Virus record (IMG/VR): IMGVR_UViG_3300042340_000194
Span: 1 to 64,000 of that record
Strand: one strand, 5' to 3'
Length of the DNA stretch: 64,000 nt
Origin: a virus
Part shown: one piece after another, positions 25,431 to 37,515 of the stretch
How the letters are laid out: each line of letters opens with the position of its first letter
Position numbering within the stretch: the first letter of the stretch is position 1
Made by a program: the position numbers and the translations under genes
Notes under the pieces: model-generated
What the model saw: the letters and a program-made list of their open reading frames with translations, nothing else
The model's database searches: none
Told to the model about the DNA's origin: nothing

Positions 25431-26345
25431 TCAGGGTTTGTCCATCGCCATGACGGATCGGGGGAAGTAGATGGCCACACCACCGTGGCGGGCGTGGGCG
25501 GGAACGGTATATTCCAGGCCCTGGAGTTGAGGAGGGAAAAACTCCAGTGGCTGGGGGAGGTGCATCTCCAGCTTGTCCGGGTTACGCTCATAGGTCATGA
25601 TCCGGTCTTTAGACAAGAACCCGCCGGATTTAGAGGCAGTAAGCTCATTGATGGGTTCAATGTCCTTAATAACCTCGTTGGTATCGAGGAAAAACTCCAT
25701 GACAGTGGTGTCCGAAGCCGTCCCGAGCTTCATTGTGGAGATCTTTCGGAACACATTGTACGGAACCAACATGGTGTCTGGTTGTTCTTTCATGTTGCTG
25801 TTCTCGACGATCCGGGTTACCGGTTCATTGAGGAGTTCGAGAACTTCATCGGCGGTGATGCCGGACGTGTCGAACCACTTATCAGGTACGATCTTGTCGA
25901 GTTGATCGGAGTTGAAGAAGCCGCGAAGGCCGGCAGCAGGATCTCCGAAGTAGGAAATGCGCTGCATAGTTTCTTCATAGACGCGACGCACAGCGTTAGC
26001 GCGGCGTTGCTCCAGGTTTGTGTTGGGGACTTCAGCCGCAGCTCGCAGCTCCTGGACGGTGTAGCCAAAGCTGGAACCGTAGGATTCAACCTTGTGGGTT
26101 ACTTCCTTACGGAACACATCAGCGCGGGGGAGATCCTTTGCCTTATCGGCAATTCGCCGCATGGAGCCTTGTTGGTCGTAGATCCTATATGTGTAGGAAT
26201 CCTTCCCATTAGACACCTCGCTGTTAATGGGGAGTACACTAGCGTATTTGATGTCGGCATACTCGACTTCAAAAGCCCTAGTGATGATATGCTCAAGTTC
26301 CCTCGCGAGGAAGAAACCGTGGTTGTCGAGGCGTTGGTTGGACAT
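25431..26345 (-). CDS. major capsid protein (DUF2184-like)
   Basis: This 304-residue protein matches the DUF2184 type of HK97-fold capsid proteins. Features are an N-terminal helix (FLARELEHIITRAFEVEYAD), the DSYTYRIYDQQGSMRRIAD segment (about 49-67), a long spine-like helix (TNLEQRRANAVRRVYEETMQ, about 108-127) and a closing VPAHARHGGVAIYFPRSV strand. No separate scaffold gene is obvious. Cement and DUF2213 genes lie upstream, as in related phages. A segment of it (ITADEVLELLNEPVTRIVEN) recurs in a plus-strand gene at 30273-30614. Confidence 0.87.
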   Translation of the reverse strand: MSNQRLDNHGFFLARELEHIITRAFEVEYADIKYASVLPINSEVSNGKDSYTYRIYDQQGSMRRIADKAKDLPRADVFRKEVTHKVESYGSSFGYTVQELRAAAEVPNTNLEQRRANAVRRVYEETMQRISYFGDPAAGLRGFFNSDQLDKIVPDKWFDTSGITADEVLELLNEPVTRIVENSNMKEQPDTMLVPYNVFRKISTMKLGTASDTTVMEFFLDTNEVIKDIEPINELTASKSGGFLSKDRIMTYERNPDKLEMHLPQPLEFFPPQLQGLEYTVPAHARHGGVAIYFPRSVMAMDKP

Positions 26346-27089: not shown

Positions 27090-28400
27090 TCATCGCCTCT
27101 TAGAAGCAGTCAGCGGTTTCTGCCAACTATTGTTGGTTTTTTGCTTGTAGCTATCGGAGGATGCTGCAGCATCGCGCCGTTGAACCCCGCGAAGGGCCGT
27201 GCGCAGCTTGCCGGTGGAATCGGCAGCATCGGTTCGGGGAGCTGGTTCGGCCTCGGGGGGATCTTCGGCATCAAGCGTGGCCAGGGCCCCCTCAACCCGG
27301 CCCCTCATTTGGGCGACTTCCATCTCCTCATCTGGGGCCTCACCGAAGATGTTTTCGTATGCTTGGACATACAACTCATCGGCCTCGATGCCGTCGAAGA
27401 CGAAATCGTCTTCAAAGGCGGGTGCGAGGAGTTGAAGAGTGTCGAGGCGGGCGGCTACTAGGGTGTCCAACCGGGAGGCTGGGATTTGAGCGAGAACCGC
27501 GTCGATGTTGTCTTCATCGAGGTGAATCTCACTGGGTTCCCCGGCATCAATCGTGGCCTGGAGCCCATCGGCCCGCCCTTCGGCGATCTCCTTCTCAGCC
27601 TCCAGGTCGGAAAAATCACTCTGCAGGGTATTTAGCTTTTCCTGCAGAGTGGAATTAGCAGTGCGCAGTTCAGTAAGGGCCTTGCTGGAATCCCTCACAT
27701 AGGCTTGCACCAGCGGAGCATATTCAGAGGCAACCTCAACATCGACTCCATCGAGATTGATACGGGCCATAACGGGGTTCGCGGGGGGTACGGGCTCGGG
27801 GGAATCGAGGAGTGCTTGATCAAAAGATACCGCTGCCGTAGAATCCATTCGATCTAACAGCAACCTGACTTCTGGGCCAGCACGTCCTTTAGGGACAATG
27901 GCGATGTGGTTGACGCGGATATTGCGTTGGACACCGTCATAGGACTCGCCTGATGGTGTTTGACCGGGGGTAGGGTCATAATCGACTCGGTAGCCGGCGG
28001 ATACTTCTACAGCGTGATCGGGAGAATCTTTACGTTGGATGTTGTCGATGGATTTTTGGTCAGTGACAAGAAGCGCGACTTCAACAAAACCGTCGCTGAA
28101 GTGGACATGCGAGCCGGCATGCCCGATTTGATACATCTTTGTATTATCCGCATCAAGGAGCTGCGGAGGATGACGCCAAGTAACTGGCTTCATCCCGAAG
28201 GATGCTAGGGTTTCTGGCTTTCCTACTTCCTCTTCCGGGCGGTACTCAGTTTCGACCCTGCCGTCAGCGCGGCGATATTTCTGGAGGCCAGTGCGGGCGG
28301 TGCGGGCCCGGACCTGGAGGTATCCCGACTCCGGGTCGATCTTGCAGCCGACGATAGGCAGCGAGAGGAAGTCGTATCGGGTAGCTGTTGCTAGGCTCAT
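27090..28400 (-). CDS. DUF2213 prohead protein (putative maturation protease/scaffold)
   Basis: This 436-residue protein has a DUF2213-like domain in residues 1-190 (ATRYDFLSLPIVGC, then VTWRHPPQLLDADN, HAVEVSAGYRVDYDPTPG and HIAIVPKGRAGPEVRLL). DUF2213 is regarded as a likely prohead protease. The C-terminal half is acidic and coiled-coil, resembling a fused scaffold (LTELRTANSTLQEKLNTLQ onward). Position upstream of cement and capsid genes fits this. If it is a protease, it is the natural candidate to trim proteins packaged in the head. Confidence 0.78.
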   Translation of the reverse strand: MSLATATRYDFLSLPIVGCKIDPESGYLQVRARTARTGLQKYRRADGRVETEYRPEEEVGKPETLASFGMKPVTWRHPPQLLDADNTKMYQIGHAGSHVHFSDGFVEVALLVTDQKSIDNIQRKDSPDHAVEVSAGYRVDYDPTPGQTPSGESYDGVQRNIRVNHIAIVPKGRAGPEVRLLLDRMDSTAAVSFDQALLDSPEPVPPANPVMARINLDGVDVEVASEYAPLVQAYVRDSSKALTELRTANSTLQEKLNTLQSDFSDLEAEKEIAEGRADGLQATIDAGEPSEIHLDEDNIDAVLAQIPASRLDTLVAARLDTLQLLAPAFEDDFVFDGIEADELYVQAYENIFGEAPDEEMEVAQMRGRVEGALATLDAEDPPEAEPAPRTDAADSTGKLRTALRGVQRRDAAASSDSYKQKTNNSWQKPLTASKRR

Positions 28401-28436: not shown

Positions 28437-29486
28437 CTAGTAGCTTTTTAACAAAGCGGTCTCTAAACTTCTGTAATAACCTTTTACAACTTTGTCTACG
28501 TGATCGGTTTCATAAGTGCGCAGCGCGTTTTCTAGAGGATCCCATTGAGGAGCCCAACGCCTTTCAAATGTTTCTACTGCGTATTCTGATAAACCTACGC
28601 GGCGTGGTACTTGAGTAAGCTCGTTGATGAAATCGCGGGCGCTAGTTCGATTTTCTGTAGCGAACTCAGCTAGGCCGAAGTCGATGAATTTAAGGCTTCT
28701 GGTTTTTGGGTTAAACATTATGTTTTTTAAGTGCCCATCGTTGTGTACGAGACCACTAATGTGTAAAGAGCGATAGAGGTCTAACATTTGGCGTTTTAAC
28801 TGTAGTGGTGCGGTGTATTTAAGCGAGAAAATACTAGAACTTACCCCATGCGTAGATAAAGGGGAATAATTGTTCAAGTGCTCCATGACCAATACCCGGT
28901 CAGTAGCTTTGTATAGCTGAGGGGATGGCACATTATTGATGTTAGCGTGCCTTAGTATCTCACCTTCAGGGAGTAAGCTTTCTGTGGGGCCGCTCAGGAA
29001 TTTATTAGGTGTCCCCCCGAGGTCGTTGTTCTTTAAGTATTTTATACCGTATTTATTAGACGGGTGGACAACATAATTACCGTAAGCACCTTGGCCCCCT
29101 AGACATCGTGGAGTCGGAACAAAGTCATCTTCTCTAATCCAGTGATCAATCTTGGATGCTGCACATGCAATTGCGTTGGCTTTCTTGTTATCTTCAAAGA
29201 CATCCCACTGTTTGCCGCGCTTCCGCGCCTCAGCTTCGATCCGATCCCAGTCCTCACCAGGGGCGGTGAATCCCTTCCAATCGGGGTCGCGGCGAACGAA
29301 ACGGCGGGCGGCGGAGATGCCTAGGGCTGCGATCCCGGCCCCAAGGGCGACTTTGCCGATCAGGCTCGGGGTGATTGTTGGATTAGAACTGGGCGCAGTG
29401 GTCTTTTTGGAGCATTTCTTGTTGTCTGGTATGCCTGACGCACCGCATTTTTTGTCGAATCTTAGTGAAGCGGTGGTTATGGGCAT
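28437..29486 (-). CDS. kinase-like protein with Cys motif and hydrophobic segment
   Basis: This 349-residue protein has three parts. The short N terminus carries the shared Cys motif (R9-x-DKKCGASGIPDNKKC, C14 and C25). A hydrophobic Gly/Ala segment follows (about 40-62) and ends in Arg residues. The rest is a protein-kinase-like fold: a Gly-rich loop GGQGAYGNYVV with Lys in GIKYLK, a helix-C type Glu (EGEILRHA), the catalytic loop HNDGHLKN and the metal-binding DFG. All key kinase residues are present. It is the first gene of the effector-like cluster and is divergent from the plus-strand island. Substrate unknown. Confidence 0.82.
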   Translation of the reverse strand: MPITTASLRFDKKCGASGIPDNKKCSKKTTAPSSNPTITPSLIGKVALGAGIAALGISAARRFVRRDPDWKGFTAPGEDWDRIEAEARKRGKQWDVFEDNKKANAIACAASKIDHWIREDDFVPTPRCLGGQGAYGNYVVHPSNKYGIKYLKNNDLGGTPNKFLSGPTESLLPEGEILRHANINNVPSPQLYKATDRVLVMEHLNNYSPLSTHGVSSSIFSLKYTAPLQLKRQMLDLYRSLHISGLVHNDGHLKNIMFNPKTRSLKFIDFGLAEFATENRTSARDFINELTQVPRRVGLSEYAVETFERRWAPQWDPLENALRTYETDHVDKVVKGYYRSLETALLKSY

Positions 29487-29549
29487 GATTACCGGTGGTA
29501 TGTATGCTATTCTAGCGAGGCACCTGCGTGGACACTTGTCTTGGGTTTT

Positions 29550-30014
29550 ATGGATAGAGAGACTCTGGTCAAGCTAAATGGCGATGTGGCGCAGTTAAAA
29601 GGTATTATGCAGCCTTTTAATGATGCTGCCGCTCAGGCCAATAAAGGTTTTATTGAGCTTGGGCGTACTCTGAACTTAGAGGCCCAACGGCGCAATGCCA
29701 TCTTGCGAGCATTGTTTTATTCATCGGTCAAGGCCGCATCACCTACTATTGGGCGTAAACGTCGCGCCCGCAGGGCTAGGGGAAGGCGGCTAGAGGTCAA
29801 GGCAGGAAATAAAACCAATAACGAGTTTCAGTCATACGACAGTGTCTGTCCTCCGATTAGTTCAAACCATATTGCGATCAGCGAAGATGGCGAACTCAGT
29901 TTTGTTTACCGTGCTCATATTGAGCACACATCAGGAGTGACTCCTGATGGGTCAGAATATAAGGCCATTGTAAGATCAATAAAACCAATCAGTGCTAGGA
30001 TTAAGGCGTTATGA
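29550..30014 (+). CDS. plus-strand island protein with basic TIGRKRR module
   Basis: The ATG at 29550 (MDRETLVK) gives 154 residues. The N-terminal 60 residues are helical. Residues about 65-80 form a strongly basic patch (SPTIGRKRRARRARGRRL) that recurs almost unchanged in the protein at 30273. The C-terminal half is beta-like, with SEDGELSFVYRAHIEHTSG. No family is recognised, but the basic patch could bind nucleic acid. It opens a plus-strand block of four coupled genes, opposite to its surroundings. Confidence 0.6.
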   Translation: MDRETLVKLNGDVAQLKGIMQPFNDAAAQANKGFIELGRTLNLEAQRRNAILRALFYSSVKAASPTIGRKRRARRARGRRLEVKAGNKTNNEFQSYDSVCPPISSNHIAISEDGELSFVYRAHIEHTSGVTPDGSEYKAIVRSIKPISARIKAL

Positions 30015-30280
30015 TATCCCCACTCCTCATGATAGACTTTGTAACCGTACAAACCACTGTAGCATTTGAGTTGTACATGGACGAACCCGCTGGTGGGTCT
30101 AGCCTAGAGGATCTAAATACTAGGATCTTAGTATTTAGAGAGAAGCTTATCGAGATTTATGGTTGCAATCCTGCAATTCTACGTGTAGTGGAACACCCTT
30201 TCTGGATACTTAATCCAGTGGCGGATCAGCCATTTAATCTAGTTAAACCACGCTCTTATTTTTCAAACTGCCATGTTTAA
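30011..30280 (+). CDS. small hypothetical protein
   Basis: This 89-residue protein is coupled to the gene before it by an ATGA overlap and overlaps the next start by eight bases. It has an alpha/beta look (TVAFELYMDEPAGG, then LNTRILVFREKLIEIYG). No family is recognised. Its place between two genes that share the basic module suggests one transcript of four genes. Confidence 0.55.
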   Translation: MISPLLMIDFVTVQTTVAFELYMDEPAGGSSLEDLNTRILVFREKLIEIYGCNPAILRVVEHPFWILNPVADQPFNLVKPRSYFSNCHV

Positions 30281-30614
30281 GGACGACCTAGGGATAAACA
30301 TACAAAATGCTGCTTGCAGTACTACAGGCATGACTGCTGATGAAATGCTTGAACTACTAAATGAGCCGGTTACGCGCATCGTAGAGAACTTTAACATGAG
30401 GGAGAAACTGGACACTATATTGCTCGATTCTAAGCAGTTTGCGTCTATATTATCTGAACGCACCAAGGCGGCAATGAATCGCGTCTATCACAATACGAGA
30501 CCTAACTATCTACCTATCTTTGTTAACGCCTCCCCCACTATTGGACGTAAACGCCGCAACCGTCGCGCTCGGGGGCGTAAACTAGCAGCTAATCGCCAAA
30601 AAGCTTGTGCTTAA
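30273..30614 (+). CDS. chimera of a capsid-protein fragment and the basic TIGRKRR module
   Basis: This 113-residue protein has residues 18-52 clearly related to the phage's own major capsid protein: TTGMTADEMLELLNEPVTRI here against TSGITADEVLELLNEPVTRI there, continuing through VEN-x-NM and DT. The corresponding DNA has diverged, so this is not a very recent copy. Residues about 85-103 are the basic SPTIGRKRRNRRARGRKL module shared with the 29550 gene. It overlaps the Dcd start by eight bases. It could be a capsid-assembly modulator, an RNA- or DNA-binding capsid ligand, or a decaying recombination product. Confidence 0.62.
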   Translation: MFKDDLGINIQNAACSTTGMTADEMLELLNEPVTRIVENFNMREKLDTILLDSKQFASILSERTKAAMNRVYHNTRPNYLPIFVNASPTIGRKRRNRRARGRKLAANRQKACA

Positions 30615-31212
30615 GAACGACATCTGGATAGGACAGCAAGCTGCCGCTGGGATGATCGAGCCCTATCAGGAATGTCTGTTGCGCCGCATTGAAACCTGGG
30701 AGGATAGCATTCTACAAGTAAAGCCGGTGTTGTCTTTTGGTGTTAGCAGTTATGGCTATGACATCCGGCTGTCGGCTCAGGAATTTATGACCTTCCGCCA
30801 TGTCCCTGGCACGGTGATGAACCCCAAGCGGGCCAATCCCGCCAACCTGGAGCCGGCCCCTCTCCATCAGGACGAGGATGGGCGCTACTTCATCCTGCCG
30901 GCGCATACCTACGGCCTCGGGGTAGCTCTGGAGAAATTGCGGGTGCCGCCGAATATCACTGTGATCTGCTTGGGGAAAAGCACTTACGCCCGGTTGGGGA
31001 TCATTGTGAATACCACGCCGGCAGAAGCGGCATGGGAGGGGCACCTAACCCTGGAGTTCAGTAATTCTTCTGGTGCTGATTGCCGTATTTATGCCGAAGA
31101 GGGTATCTGCCAACTGCTTTTCTTTGAGGGGGATCCCTGTGAAACTACTTATGCGGATCGGAATGGTAAATATCAATATCAGCCGGAACTGGTGACATTA
31201 GCAAGGGTTTGA
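30607..31212 (+). CDS. dcd: dCTP deaminase
   Basis: This 201-residue protein is close to the usual Dcd length. It would deaminate dCTP to dUTP, feeding dUMP to thymidylate synthesis. Motifs include SFGVSSYGYDIRLS near residue 43, the conserved GKSTYARLGIIVNTTPAEAAWEG block with the catalytic Glu region (about 123-145) and the closing YQ. It starts at GTG 30607 and overlaps the preceding gene. It is the only recognisable enzyme of the plus-strand island and complements ThyX (49527-50291) and MazG. Confidence 0.92.
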   Translation: MLKNDIWIGQQAAAGMIEPYQECLLRRIETWEDSILQVKPVLSFGVSSYGYDIRLSAQEFMTFRHVPGTVMNPKRANPANLEPAPLHQDEDGRYFILPAHTYGLGVALEKLRVPPNITVICLGKSTYARLGIIVNTTPAEAAWEGHLTLEFSNSSGADCRIYAEEGICQLLFFEGDPCETTYADRNGKYQYQPELVTLARV

Positions 31213-31242: not shown

Positions 31243-32133
31243 CTATCGCAGCCGATTTCCCACACGTCTTGTCAGGCGGGGCGCATTACCTAAGTACCTA
31301 TCCCAGAACTTGTTGTAGGCTTGCTGTGTGGGAGCGTTTTTAGTAAGCCCGGTCTCCTTGATCAGATCAGAGAATTTCCTATGTTCTATAGGATCTAGTT
31401 TATTCAGCATGTAGTTAATGTGGTCCATATCATTGCGTAGACCTGAAGTAGGCATGAATTTGATCGGCTTGGCGTAGCCCCAGTCGATCAATTTAACATC
31501 GCCATCCTTGACCATAACATTACCCAGGTGCATGTCTCCATGTGCGTACCCGGCCTTATGCAGCTTCGACATCTCTAAGACAAACTGCTTCGCGTAGCGG
31601 GCCTTCTCCTGCTTGGTTCCGCTTTCTACGATTTTGGTTAAGTTCTTGTACCCGTCCATGTACTCGATTTGAGTTATAGATCGCGCCGAATCGACAGCTA
31701 GGACATTCGGAGTGTTGATGCCCTTATCGTGTAGTTTGGCCTGCAGCGTGACTTCACGCAGGAACTGTCGCCGCCCGACAAGGGTTTTCTTGAAGTTTGT
31801 CTTGAAGACTGATTTACGATCCGGGGAGACGTGAATGGCCCCGGCATAACCTTTGGCTAGGAACTTACTACCTTTGGGGAGATTTTGCGGAGTTGATAAT
31901 GCAATAGCTTCCTTGAAGGCACGTTCAATTGCAGGAGTCCATCTTCTCCTGTTGAGCACTCCTACAAGAACGACTCCTGTAGCTACGGCTGCGGTGGTTG
32001 TTCTCGGGGTTATGATACCTCCTGAGCTGCTTGCAGGGGCTACGCTTTTTCCACACTTCTTGTTCGCTGCAATGCCGGATTTCCCGCACTTCTTATCCAG
32101 GCGCAGCCGCGCTGCGGTCAGTTGCAATTCCAT
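31243..32133 (-). CDS. second kinase-like protein with Cys motif
   Basis: This 296-residue protein is built like the 349-residue kinase. It has a short leader, the Cys motif (R11-x-DKKCGKSGIAANKKC, C16 and C27), a hydrophobic stretch (about 42-58, TTAAVATGVVLVGVL) ending in RRR, then a kinase/phosphotransferase domain. Domain motifs are a GYAGAIHVSPDRKSVFKT loop and Lys, Glu in FLREVTLQAKLH, the catalytic AHGDMHLGN and IDWG in place of DFG. Key residues are present. The domain is only distantly similar to the first kinase, so the leader is shared more closely than the enzyme. Convergent with dcd, 30 bases apart. Confidence 0.8.
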   Translation of the reverse strand: MELQLTAARLRLDKKCGKSGIAANKKCGKSVAPASSSGGIITPRTTTAAVATGVVLVGVLNRRRWTPAIERAFKEAIALSTPQNLPKGSKFLAKGYAGAIHVSPDRKSVFKTNFKKTLVGRRQFLREVTLQAKLHDKGINTPNVLAVDSARSITQIEYMDGYKNLTKIVESGTKQEKARYAKQFVLEMSKLHKAGYAHGDMHLGNVMVKDGDVKLIDWGYAKPIKFMPTSGLRNDMDHINYMLNKLDPIEHRKFSDLIKETGLTKNAPTQQAYNKFWDRYLGNAPRLTRRVGNRLR

Positions 32134-32444
32134 TTCCGTAACGACTTATTGATCCGTGAATCCTGGTTATTAGCGGTTTTCGCGCTGGTTAGCTTACGCT
32201 TCATTCCCGACATGCGGGCACAGAACCTCCGTCGTCTTTCTGCTCTCGCTGATCCGGGTTTGAGCTTGGAGGGGTCGGTCGTTACCGCGAGGGAGAGCTT
32301 CGAGCCTGGATGTTGCTTGCGGTAGGAGGCGATGCCTGCGGCGTTAAGGCCGCCCTCGGGGTTTTTGCCTTCCTTGCGCTGCCAAGCGGGGGATTTGTCA
32401 AGGCGGATGGTTAGAGGTGTGAGTAGTCCCACCTCAGTTACCAC
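32118..32444 (-). CDS. DUF6321-like basic protein
   Basis: This 108-residue protein matches a small phage family by pattern: SPAWQRKEGKNPEGGLNAAG, PSKLKPGSARAERRRRFCAR, then MSGMKRKLTSAKTANN with DSRINKSLRKW. It is strongly basic and probably binds nucleic acid or a virion component; function is not established. The start is GTG 32444. Before the domain it has LTIRLDK, like the R-x-DK leaders of its neighbours. It overlaps both neighbouring genes. Confidence 0.78.
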   Translation of the reverse strand: MVTEVGLLTPLTIRLDKSPAWQRKEGKNPEGGLNAAGIASYRKQHPGSKLSLAVTTDPSKLKPGSARAERRRRFCARMSGMKRKLTSAKTANNQDSRINKSLRKWNCN

Positions 32445-33270
32445 TAAAGAGCCTGCGCTTCTGCCTAATCAGCCCGATTTGGGTTTTACGCGCAGCGCGG
32501 CGTGTTGAAGCAACCCCAGCTTGGGCTTTAGCCATTGTTGTAGATACTGCAGCTTTTGTCGCCTTCCGTACTCTCGCTTTAGATGGAGGTATAGCGCCTT
32601 GAGACAACATCCCCCGAGCTTGTTTGTTATTCATAGACCGTGCCATACTGGCTTGTGAGTTGCTAACTTGATTTGTCCATGGGTCTGGAATGCCACCAGC
32701 GGAATTGGTAGGGCGAGGATTGGACATGCGGCTAGTCACACGTAAGTTTTTCGCAACTCTTAGGTTAGACATAGCATTTTTCTGCATTCCTCGATATTTC
32801 ATAGCACCCACTGTACCTGCAGCAATACTACCAGCAACGGCGGCTACTTTAAGGCCGGTCTGGACGTTTTCATTACCAAGGGAGGATTTTACAGTACCGA
32901 CTAAGCCTTTAGTACACTTTTTGCCTTCAGCAATGCCGGAAGCACCGCACTTCTTGTCCTCTCTTACACTCAACACACCACGGATATAATTCTTACTGTG
33001 TTTATTGATTCCAAGTTCACAAGCATCAAGATATTCCATAGGAGTAAGTACAGCGTCCATTGCTGCTTTAGCTGCGCAGCCACAAGAGCCACTCTTCTTA
33101 CCCTTCTTCATGCAAGCGGCACAAGGCTTCTTACCTTTCCCGTGGGGGGCATCACCGTACTCGGGGGACTCTCCCTCCTCCATCTTCGAAGACTCCATTC
33201 CTTTCCCCGCAGCGCTGCCCTCGGCGGCCTTTTTACGACCCTTTTTAAGGAATGCTGCGGGGATCGGCAT
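32434..33270 (-). CDS. Cys-rich, basic virion-type protein with shared motif
   Basis: This 278-residue protein starts with a Lys/Glu/Gly-rich segment and a Cys cluster (CAACMKKGKKSGSCGC, about 49-64). Residues about 103-121 carry the shared motif (REDKKCGASGIAEGKKC, C108 and C119). A hydrophobic Gly/Ala segment (about 136-155) and a long basic C-terminal region follow (ARVRKATKAAVSTTMAKAQA onward). No enzyme domain is seen, so this may be a structural or DNA-condensing member of the set. Confidence 0.7.
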   Translation of the reverse strand: MPIPAAFLKKGRKKAAEGSAAGKGMESSKMEEGESPEYGDAPHGKGKKPCAACMKKGKKSGSCGCAAKAAMDAVLTPMEYLDACELGINKHSKNYIRGVLSVREDKKCGASGIAEGKKCTKGLVGTVKSSLGNENVQTGLKVAAVAGSIAAGTVGAMKYRGMQKNAMSNLRVAKNLRVTSRMSNPRPTNSAGGIPDPWTNQVSNSQASMARSMNNKQARGMLSQGAIPPSKARVRKATKAAVSTTMAKAQAGVASTRRAARKTQIGLIRQKRRLFSGN

Positions 33271-34200: not shown

Positions 34201-37200
34201 TTAGTTAGAGGAAGTGGCGGGCTCGGGGGGAACTGTCTTAGCTCCGGTGGCATTCTGCTGTACTTCAGCTCGCAGGGATTTACTACTACGCTTTACCTTG
34301 TTAGGATCGTAACCTCCGTACCATACATCAATCATACGATCTTCAATTTCTGAGCGTAGTTGAAGTAGTGCTTGCTGCTTATTTGTGCTAAGAGCTTTGA
34401 TATACCGACTTTTAACATCTCTACTTTTATTACCAAATAAAACTTGTAGATCACCCTCTATTGGTTTATCGCTGGCTATACGCCATACCATTTCATTAGT
34501 CAACTCCTTTGAGCGGGCACGGTCCACTGTTAAATAACTGTGTGCCTCTTTCTGTAACTGCTTATCTAATAAATAACTATCACCAGCCTTAAAGTATTTT
34601 CTCCAGTTAGCCCCAAACTCTGGGTTATTAGGATCAATTTTTTCGCTAAGTCCATGAGGAATATTATTATTCTGTAACATGCGCACCGGACTGCTAGCGA
34701 ACGCACGTTTACCCATAGTTGCGTAAAACACATCTCCTTTGCTGACCCATGTTCGCATATTCTCATCTGTATGATTAAACACCCCGAAAGTGGGGCCTGC
34801 TACATTAACAACTTTGACATCTCTATAACCCATTTCGGCTAGAATAGCTAATGTTTCCGACGCCACATTTCCCCCATTGCTGTAGGCTAGCATGTGGACA
34901 GGCTTGCCGGTTAACCGCCGTTGTGCTGCGACAAAAGCTGCTGCACGTACTGCATCAGGATTAAACCCACGAGTTTCTATATTACCTCGCAAATAATCCA
35001 TCTGCTTAAACGCATTCTTCATCTCTATACCCATAGTAACCGGCTTCTGAGCTACTTTAGGGAGCATACCTATGCGGGCTTTCCGCGTCTTCATGTCTAG
35101 ATCGTCGGCACCTTGCTTAATAGGTTGGGAGATTTTGTTAGCAAAAGGGAGTATATCATGCTCGCCCCAGATCTCCCGAAAAGCTCCACCTTCAGCCATC
35201 AAATGACTACCTTGACCACGCTTAGTAAAAGTACCATCGTCTGCATAAGAAAGCATGACCACTGCGCCTTTGCTATTCTGTGTTTGCCCGTAAAATGCTG
35301 GGGTATTGTCCATACCACTAAACCCAGTATCATATCCTTTATCTTTGAAGTTGTAAGTAGATGCTTCAAACGGAGTAACGTCTTTGACATCCTTACCTAA
35401 ACGCTTCGCCGCTTTTTCGTTAAACTCGCGCACCATATCCTTAGCCATAGCCTCGGCGTCTATAGCAGATCTGGACACATTTCTCCTATAGGCGAATACC
35501 TGCTGAGATTTCACCCCGAGTGCGAGCCCTACGGCTGTGGCAGCCACTGCTCCAGCACCGATAGCCACATTACGGAGAGTATTGTCCTTATCTTTTGGGA
35601 TTGCTGCAGATTGCCCACCTCCGCCAGAAGCGGCTTGAGCGGCCAATGTTTTCTTAGAGCAGTTCCTATTATCAGGAATACCGGATTTACCGCAGCGCTT
35701 GTCCTGCCTAATAGTCGCAGCGAAAGCCTGGAAATAAGCATCACCGCGCTCGGGGGGCTTTCTTGCTTCCATGCGGCGGCGCTGGATTACTACGCGGGCA
35801 GCCGCCTCCGCTGACTTCTGGTTTTTATATAAAGGCTTGCCATTAGGCAATGTCCTATCCATTAGGGCTTTAAGCACGTCTAGATAAGACTGCTGCTCCT
35901 CTACATTAGTAAATTTGAAACTCTCCCTAGCCCGTCGAGGACGGTTCATCGGAGGTATCGGCGGAATAGCTCTACCGGTACGTGTGTTTAGCTCATTAGG
36001 GGGTCTTATTTGAAGCCCTTCGAATGCACCGGTCCCCCTGAGTATTGTCAAAGCTTCGGAAGGGTCTTTGATCGGCCTACCTGCGTGCTCTGAGGCAGCC
36101 TTTTGGATAGTCAGGCTCGGGGCAGACCATATCGTATTGACACTGGCGGGAAAGCCATTAGTTTGGAAATAATGCTGGTTAACTAGATCCGCAGAGTATG
36201 GGCCTTTAACCGCCTGCCTACCTGCTGTAGGGTAGAGCCGCGTAGCAAAGAACTCCGCATGCCCCTGCATCGCGTTCTGCATTACTGGGTATTGGTCTAG
36301 AGGTACGGATTTCCTTAAGCCTGTTGGCCCATAGACTTTAGGTAAAGAGTTAATAATAGACTCGTAGAAAGTATCATAGCTTGAGATTGTCTTACCATAG
36401 ATAGTTCTTGCTGTGCCAATTGCTCGGAAATTGGGGTGCAGCGTACCTAGGAGCTGGCTACGGGCTTGTTCTCTGGCTGCTGGGGTTAGCTGTTGAGCAT
36501 CGAGCAGCGTGTTAGCTAAGCTATGGCGATCTTCTAATTTACCTAGGTTAAAGCCCCGGTCTTTCGCGTAATTAGTCAACGTTTTATGCTCAGCATCCAA
36601 TTGATCTGCGATCTGCTGCACCAGCTTCACGCCTGACACTTCAGCCCCGCCAGTCACCTTGTAATGAGTTCTGAGGAAATCCTCCCCCGAGAGCGTCGCG
36701 AATTGATAACCGTCACCGACTCTATAGATTTGCTGCTCTTTCAAGCGTGGCGTGCTCCACATCGCTTTGTATGAGGCTTTATGCCACTCACCAAAGTCTG
36801 TGTAGGCGCTAGGACTTACATTTTTAACCCGCTGGCCGACAGCCGAAAATGGGGAATAGTCTAAAGGACTGGTTTTAAGAATATCAGAAGTATCGGGTAA
36901 TCCGTAGTTTCTACCAGCTACTGCTCCTACGCCATTGCGACGGCGCACTAATTCAGCGACAGCATTACGAGCTTCAGTTTTGGTACGCGCACGCGCCGGA
37001 TGTAGATCTAGCACCGAATGCAGTGCATTACTTACACTGTCATCAATGTTTTTACCAATACCTTCCCTGTAGCTGCGGATATTGCTTAAGATGCCGTGGG
37101 CACGAACTCCTCCCCCGAGTACGGCAAGAGCTACACCGATGCCTATAGACCCTTGAACTAGAGCAGCTTGTAGTTCTTTTTTCTTCTTAAGATCTTGAGG

Positions 37201-37515
37201 GGATGCTTTAACAGCACCGCGAATGACGGCTTTTCTACCGCCTTCTAATTCTGAGAAGTTACCAGTAGTTATGCCTTTTCTAAGGCGACCGAGCCCTCTT
37301 TGTGTGCTGGCGAGTGCAGCTAATGGATCACTACCTCTTCCCGCAGCTTTTAAATGTCCATCACCGCCTTCCCCCTTTAGCCGGCAATCCCATTCAGGAG
37401 GAATGCAGCGAGATCCACAACGCCGATTAGGCGGCTTACACGCAATGGTGTTTCGAGTCTTAGCGTCGATCCTCGATTGAGTAATCAGGAAAGTAGCCGT
37501 ACGAATGTTGGTCAT
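34201..37515 (-). CDS. two-module virion-type protein with lipase-like domain
   Basis: This 1104-residue protein contains two successive cassettes. Module one starts with a Cys motif (ACKPPNRRCGSRCIPPEWDC, about 26-45), then a hydrophobic stretch (about 117-140) and an unrecognised domain to about 590. Module two starts with IRQDKRCGKSGIPDNRNC (C608 and C619), a hydrophobic segment (about 645-668), then a lipase-like alpha/beta-hydrolase. Its nucleophile elbow is LAYSNGGNVAS (Ser-Asn-Gly-Gly, around residue 885), with a possible catalytic Asp in SKGD and a His downstream. The gene lies directly after the portal, where head-morphogenesis proteins usually sit, but I cannot recognise a MuF domain. 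It starts at ATG 37515, overlapping the portal stop. Confidence 0.72.
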   Translation of the reverse strand: MTNIRTATFLITQSRIDAKTRNTIACKPPNRRCGSRCIPPEWDCRLKGEGGDGHLKAAGRGSDPLAALASTQRGLGRLRKGITTGNFSELEGGRKAVIRGAVKASPQDLKKKKELQAALVQGSIGIGVALAVLGGGVRAHGILSNIRSYREGIGKNIDDSVSNALHSVLDLHPARARTKTEARNAVAELVRRRNGVGAVAGRNYGLPDTSDILKTSPLDYSPFSAVGQRVKNVSPSAYTDFGEWHKASYKAMWSTPRLKEQQIYRVGDGYQFATLSGEDFLRTHYKVTGGAEVSGVKLVQQIADQLDAEHKTLTNYAKDRGFNLGKLEDRHSLANTLLDAQQLTPAAREQARSQLLGTLHPNFRAIGTARTIYGKTISSYDTFYESIINSLPKVYGPTGLRKSVPLDQYPVMQNAMQGHAEFFATRLYPTAGRQAVKGPYSADLVNQHYFQTNGFPASVNTIWSAPSLTIQKAASEHAGRPIKDPSEALTILRGTGAFEGLQIRPPNELNTRTGRAIPPIPPMNRPRRARESFKFTNVEEQQSYLDVLKALMDRTLPNGKPLYKNQKSAEAAARVVIQRRRMEARKPPERGDAYFQAFAATIRQDKRCGKSGIPDNRNCSKKTLAAQAASGGGGQSAAIPKDKDNTLRNVAIGAGAVAATAVGLALGVKSQQVFAYRRNVSRSAIDAEAMAKDMVREFNEKAAKRLGKDVKDVTPFEASTYNFKDKGYDTGFSGMDNTPAFYGQTQNSKGAVVMLSYADDGTFTKRGQGSHLMAEGGAFREIWGEHDILPFANKISQPIKQGADDLDMKTRKARIGMLPKVAQKPVTMGIEMKNAFKQMDYLRGNIETRGFNPDAVRAAAFVAAQRRLTGKPVHMLAYSNGGNVASETLAILAEMGYRDVKVVNVAGPTFGVFNHTDENMRTWVSKGDVFYATMGKRAFASSPVRMLQNNNIPHGLSEKIDPNNPEFGANWRKYFKAGDSYLLDKQLQKEAHSYLTVDRARSKELTNEMVWRIASDKPIEGDLQVLFGNKSRDVKSRYIKALSTNKQQALLQLRSEIEDRMIDVWYGGYDPNKVKRSSKSLRAEVQQNATGAKTVPPEPATSSN

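Follow-up and report, generated by a model that had tools for sequence, protein, structure and literature searches.

The plus-strand cassette

The window, i.e., the 64-kb stretch of viral DNA analyzed here, was taken from the 75.6-kb record of a freshwater cyanobacterial virus. Synechococcus phage S-CBS4 is the nearest isolate by major capsid protein (MCP), with 52% identity across 99% of that protein. The late genes are on the minus strand, and a cassette of four overlapping plus-strand ORFs, in the order orf3-orf4-orfX-dcd, lies inside this long late region, flanked by two kinase-like genes (Table 1). The second ORF, orf4, is under constraint (dN 0.11-0.13, dS 0.45-0.50). The earlier note on this DNA had described a plus-strand ORF at 30273-30614 that shares a segment with an MCP encoded on the opposite strand; the ORF lies exactly there, and the MCP gene is at 25431-26345 on the minus strand.

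Table 1. Features of the cassette and of the related head genes in the window.
Feature	Position	Strand	Remark
MCP gene	25431..26345	-	PF09950 / phrog_264
MCP gene stretch matching orfX	25767..25862	-	DNA match
DUF2213 head-protease gene	27090..28400	-	related, not closest, to the piece in orf3
Cys-module protein, kinase-like	28437-29486	-	flanks the cassette
orf3	29541..30014	+	157 aa, sister ARM gene of orfX
ARM motif region of orf3	29735..29782	+	DNA comparison with orfX
DUF2213 head-protease fragment of orf3 (aa 117-148), after ARM	29889..29984	+	sequence/profile match
orf4	30011..30280	+	89 aa, without known family; overlaps both orf3 and orfX
orfX	30273..30614	+	113 aa, fusion of MCP-derived segment and ARM protein
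MCP-homologous DNA, orfX codons 19-50	30327..30422	+	75% identical to 25767-25862 (-)
ARM-family part of orfX, complete (aa 54-113)	30432..30611	+	ARM family comparison
ARM motif region of orfX	30527..30574	+	77% DNA identity to 29735-29782
dcd, dCTP deaminase	30607..31212	+	start overlaps orfX end
Cys-module protein, kinase-like	31243-32133	-	flanks the cassette
Cys-module protein	32434-33270	-	
Cys-module protein	34201-37515	-	

Further features were observed in and around the cassette. The dcd product begins with a short N-terminal stretch unlike that of the relatives L005, L006 and L009 (201 vs. 213 aa) and is otherwise nearly identical to theirs; the differing N-terminus probably marks another recombination breakpoint in the cassette. 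Near-perfect inverted repeats are present at 29914-29963 in orf3 and at 30112-30139 in orf4, with 10-bp arms CATCAGGAGT and CTAAATACTA, and may form hairpins in what seems to be a recombination-prone cassette. A repeated Cys module, RLDKKCGxSGIxxxKKC, is common to four proteins of the head region, and more copies occur in relatives.

The capsid-derived segment of orfX

The match of about 35 residues to the MCP that the earlier note had reported was borne out: 28 of 35 residues are identical, and the DNA of these codons (orfX 19-50) agrees with the MCP gene in 72 of 96 bp (E 3e-15). With tblastn, the similarity extended over orfX residues 4-59 and MCP residues 147-202 (53.6% over 56 aa, E ~3e-13). 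Profile searches of orfX against PHROGs and Pfam gave matches to phrog_264 (major head protein; E 6e-4) and PF09950 (E 0.0035), which are weak but fall at the profile position corresponding to the MCP segment. The PF09950 match covers 50 of 251 Pfam positions and remains under the Pfam cut-off (17.2 vs. 26.8 bits), and the MCP itself matches the two profiles with E values of 3e-74 (phrog_264) and 3e-51 (PF09950). By homology, orfX is thus best classed as carrying an MCP fragment and not as a full MCP. It holds the only extra MCP copy in the whole 75.6-kb record.

The segment was compared with the best 80 of 202 IMG/VR relatives of the MCP. Among these 80, its nearest relative is the MCP of the same phage (75% DNA identity; next, 72.5%), and it groups with the MCP clade of the window virus and L021-L023 (local support of 0.94); no recent donor was found in this set. 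When the MCP profile was aligned to solved MCPs (8hdt and others), the segment fell on a helix and the strand after it; we take this helix to be the spine helix of the P-domain in HK97. This assignment rests on the solved structures and the known HK97 fold, since the MCP model from AlphaFold was unusable (pLDDT of 33). The strand after the helix is conserved in MCPs and has diverged in orfX. In the structure model of orfX, helices are predicted at residues 22-39, 53-75 and 90-112, with low confidence except near the arginine-rich motif described below.

Comparison of orfX with the MCP gene yielded a dN of 0.054 and a dS of 1.8 for 21 helix codons, i.e., silent sites are saturated while the protein has been kept, and a dN of about 0.66 for the codons after the helix. 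About 2.5 non-silent changes fell in 48 sites of the helix codons, as compared to about 10.5 in the 34 sites just downstream (P 0.001). The view that the DNA had diverged while the protein match was retained therefore holds for the 21 helix codons and fails for the remaining segment. These contrasts give moderate support for selection on the capsid helix of orfX, and they fall short of proof since constraint also acts on the MCP branch and the donor may be an unsampled MCP. With such a donor, the silent divergence could have arisen before any long stay in orfX, and capsid binding could equally explain a constraint on the helix.

Genes orthologous to orfX are found at the same place in seven IMG/VR contigs and, counting the window, represent four sequence types with 90-100% identity, all of which retain the helix. 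The overlapping operon is retained in relatives as well. L009 and L010 lack orf3 and orf4 through deletion, and a tandem duplication of 34 bp near the orfX start (L009 7990-8060; same place in L010) shifts the frame, so that the first 19 residues are lost; since translation can resume at MTADEMLELLNEP by way of an ATGA overlap, the helix and the tail remain open. The earlier note had taken broken frames in relatives as the outcome that would speak against retained function. Instead, the frame was found open in all seven, with L009 and L010 needing the internal restart. The dN/dS comparison of orthologues that it had proposed gave values on the side of constraint (0.38-0.49 for residues 20-113 in the two most informative comparisons), but with few changes and an excess of silent changes at P 0.06 and 0.18. 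Constraint among the orthologues is thus weak.

The ARM family and its recurrent fusions

The earlier note had called the recipient of the capsid piece an unrelated small protein. This description had to be replaced, since residues 54-113 of orfX belong to a definable family of small basic proteins with a near-invariant IGRKRRxRRARGR, here named the arginine-rich motif (ARM). When 35 related records were searched with the orfX sequence, residues 54-106 matched a small basic protein of the L023 phage that stands alone (MSTFGEQFAAVIKSELNRVY...SPIGRKRRARRARGRQIKA, L101 4947-5210, minus strand); the identity is 45%, with the motif aligned. orfX has both the motif and the preceding stretch QFA..L....K...NRVY by which membership was judged, and orf3 carries the same motif (dN 0.15, dS 1.57 over 19 codons shared with orfX). 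As read from the sequences, orfX is a fusion in which a piece of about 35-55 aa from its own MCP clade precedes a complete ARM protein.

IMG/VR was scanned with a degenerate DNA pattern for G-R-K-R-R-x-R-R-A-R-G, and ARM genes were found in 61 contigs, many of them of cyanophage type; their products are small. The invariance of the motif is partly ascertained because the pattern itself requires it; orf3 and orfX were found without the motif filter. The motif codons differ silently across contigs, which rules out a DNA repeat or a ribosome-binding element. A host gene was ruled out as well: within the Cyanobium family, the motif was found in one Cyanobium MAG, beside an integrase gene, and in none of 299 other genomes. 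The family had no match in the PHROGs, Pfam and isolate-phage collections searched and is apparently undescribed in these libraries, and the open-access literature yielded no description of it or of captured MCP fragments in small phage genes. A match to ribosomal protein L35 in the PDB looks like chance or composition. From its composition, the ARM probably binds nucleic acid.

The sequence before the ARM differs among contigs, whereas the ARM and the sequence following it are often common to them. No source was found for most of the N-termini (PYQERFLAAL... and others). At 16 loci, 15 in IMG/VR contigs and one in the Cyanobium MAG, the ARM gene lies 160-730 bp upstream of a same-strand integrase gene. 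In nine contigs, dcd follows the ARM gene immediately; these are the seven with orfX as well as L143 and L150. A further five (L127, L136, L145, L153 and L162) have the ARM gene in the terminase-portal stretch, close to a sigma-factor-like gene, and the remaining ARM genes have other locations. DNA of the window and L150 is 68% identical over 164 bp from the ARM region into dcd and unrelated before the ARM, and the pattern is similar for L143 (63% over 139 bp). Thus, the sequence before the ARM is exchangeable, and the ARM and the downstream gene can travel together. Two arrangements were observed on the integrase side. L115 (6595-7456, minus strand) has two tandem overlapping ARM genes upstream of the integrase gene, like orf3 and orfX in the window. 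The C-terminal modules PPYVGGRIWLASA, LTVEQWAAAR and FLDPSLGEPWEE are common to integrase-side ARM proteins (L121, L128, L131, L132, L151, L163 and others) and also occur in an L151 ORF without the ARM, as though these small genes had been put together from shuffled modules.

Capture of head-gene pieces was not limited to orfX. The ARM proteins of four contigs (L127, L145, L153 and L162) have a portal fragment before the ARM, with up to 57% identity to the portal protein of L127 across 94 aa (E ~1e-24) and support from the profiles phrog_146 (1e-7) and PF06381 (2e-6). Where the contig reaches that far, the portal gene is about 2.3 kb from the portal-ARM gene. The fragment evolves almost neutrally (two types, L127 and L145; dN 0.068, dS 0.123, P 0.24). 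In orf3, a DUF2213 piece follows the ARM, and orf3 is barely constrained outside the ARM (dN 0.36-0.40, dS 0.62-0.73). Since the MCP and DUF2213 fragments lie on the opposite strand in mirrored order, an inverted duplication of the MCP-DUF2213 region was considered. It was ruled out on three grounds: the DUF2213 protein of L092 is a closer match to the piece (45%) than that of the window (34%), the piece is missing from orf3 of L005-L008, and the two sides have no other DNA homology. All traceable captured pieces come from head proteins (MCP, portal and DUF2213). With such recurrent capture and with head genes nearby in these lineages, retention of a piece is by itself no proof of function. 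Nor is capture, since the ARM half is common to proteins without a capsid piece and the captured portal fragment evolves almost neutrally. The earlier proposal of a captured MCP piece with retained function accordingly stands for the capture, by homology, and only moderately for constraint on the helix.

Origin and possible roles of orfX

We infer that mosaic recombination recurs at ARM genes and that orfX is one of its products. ARM loci would be recombination-prone junctions at which illegitimate or homeologous recombination adds new 5' pieces, sometimes from head genes, and in-frame, translated products would be able to persist. In orfX, the capsid helix may have been co-opted as an N-terminal helical extension that does not act on capsids; the ARM would be the working part and bind nucleic acid, and the protein would be produced from an operon coupled with dcd. 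To this joint reading, i.e., recombination-prone ARM loci, a nucleic-acid-binding ARM and a co-opted helix without capsid action, we give about an even chance.

Phage mosaicism by illegitimate or relaxed homologous recombination likewise produces new joints of unlike sequences, truncated gene pieces and short shared stretches at module borders. In the present case, in contrast, a single short protein motif recurs as the partner, to which fragments of several head genes were joined in separate lineages. The arginine-rich nucleic-acid-binding motifs of lambda N and HIV Tat resemble the ARM in their short Arg/Lys cluster and similar composition, a resemblance only; the ARM is internal or C-terminal and joined to unlike N-termini.

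The MCP piece may also be a neutral passenger, pasted before an ARM gene by recombination and now decaying, so that only the ARM or the open frame matters; in a variant of this reading, the open frame merely keeps translation coupled to dcd, the start of which overlaps the orfX end. The near-neutral portal piece, the relaxed parts of orf3 and the loss of the first 19 residues of orfX in L009 and L010 fit such decay, but the paucity of non-silent changes in the helix relative to the sequence just downstream and the presence of the helix in all four sequence types do not, and we regard a passenger as possible though rather doubtful. The retained helix would also be expected if orfX bound MCP or procapsids, of its own or of competing phages, and altered assembly as a decoy, size factor or interference protein, as the earlier note had suggested; the ARM would then supply charge or nucleic-acid contact. 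The head origin of all traceable pieces is in line with this, but location can account for it since head genes are near these ARM genes. A precedent is Rcm, a small satellite protein that binds MCP and redirects assembly (PMC12409344). Like orfX, the satellite capsid-redirecting factors (SaPI CpmB and Rcm, PLE TcaP, P4 Sid) are small, mostly helical and encoded by phage-related elements. They differ from orfX in being satellite-encoded, in not deriving from MCP and in lacking an ARM, whereas the record that holds orfX is that of a phage and includes MCP, DUF2213 and portal genes of its own; moreover, MCP binding was shown for Rcm and is hypothetical for orfX. Since, in addition, most ARM proteins have no head-protein piece and the strand after the helix has diverged, an action of orfX on capsids appears unlikely and is unsupported by the present observations. 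We rate as similarly unlikely, and slightly more so, the broader proposal that freshwater cyanophages make combinatorial small effectors from a constant ARM and virion head segments (MCP helix, portal, protease), selected for acting on head assembly or packaging of their own or competing phages.

The integrase-side loci suggest that ARM proteins could be recombination directionality (excisionase-like) factors, with orfX a displaced member, as a position directly upstream of the integrase gene is usual for small basic excisionases and is shared by 16 ARM loci. The window phage differs in that its ARM genes lie beside dcd and no PF00589 match was found in its 75.6-kb record; therefore, the ARM is not simply an integrase partner, and a strict partnership was ruled out for this phage. 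With ARM genes as often beside dcd, terminase or portal genes, we consider this role improbable. Host defenses that recognize capsid segments (Gol/Lit, CapRel) provide a precedent for an anti-defense decoy, in which the MCP helix would occupy a host sensor of capsid protein. It is the only argument for such a decoy: PADLOC returned only a TniQ match at chance level (E 0.017), nothing points to hosts sensing this MCP segment, and we hold this explanation to be very improbable.

The origin of orfX fits phage mosaicism making small fusion genes, an already known process, while the ARM family is apparently undescribed in the libraries searched. The ARM genes make phage gene fusion visible at several stages, with a constant short peptide joined to varying virion-gene pieces and other sequences, and many of them lie directly beside integrase or dCTP deaminase genes. 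ARM fusions offer a handle for asking if virion fragments, once captured, are junk, serve as raw material for new small proteins or act as interference factors.
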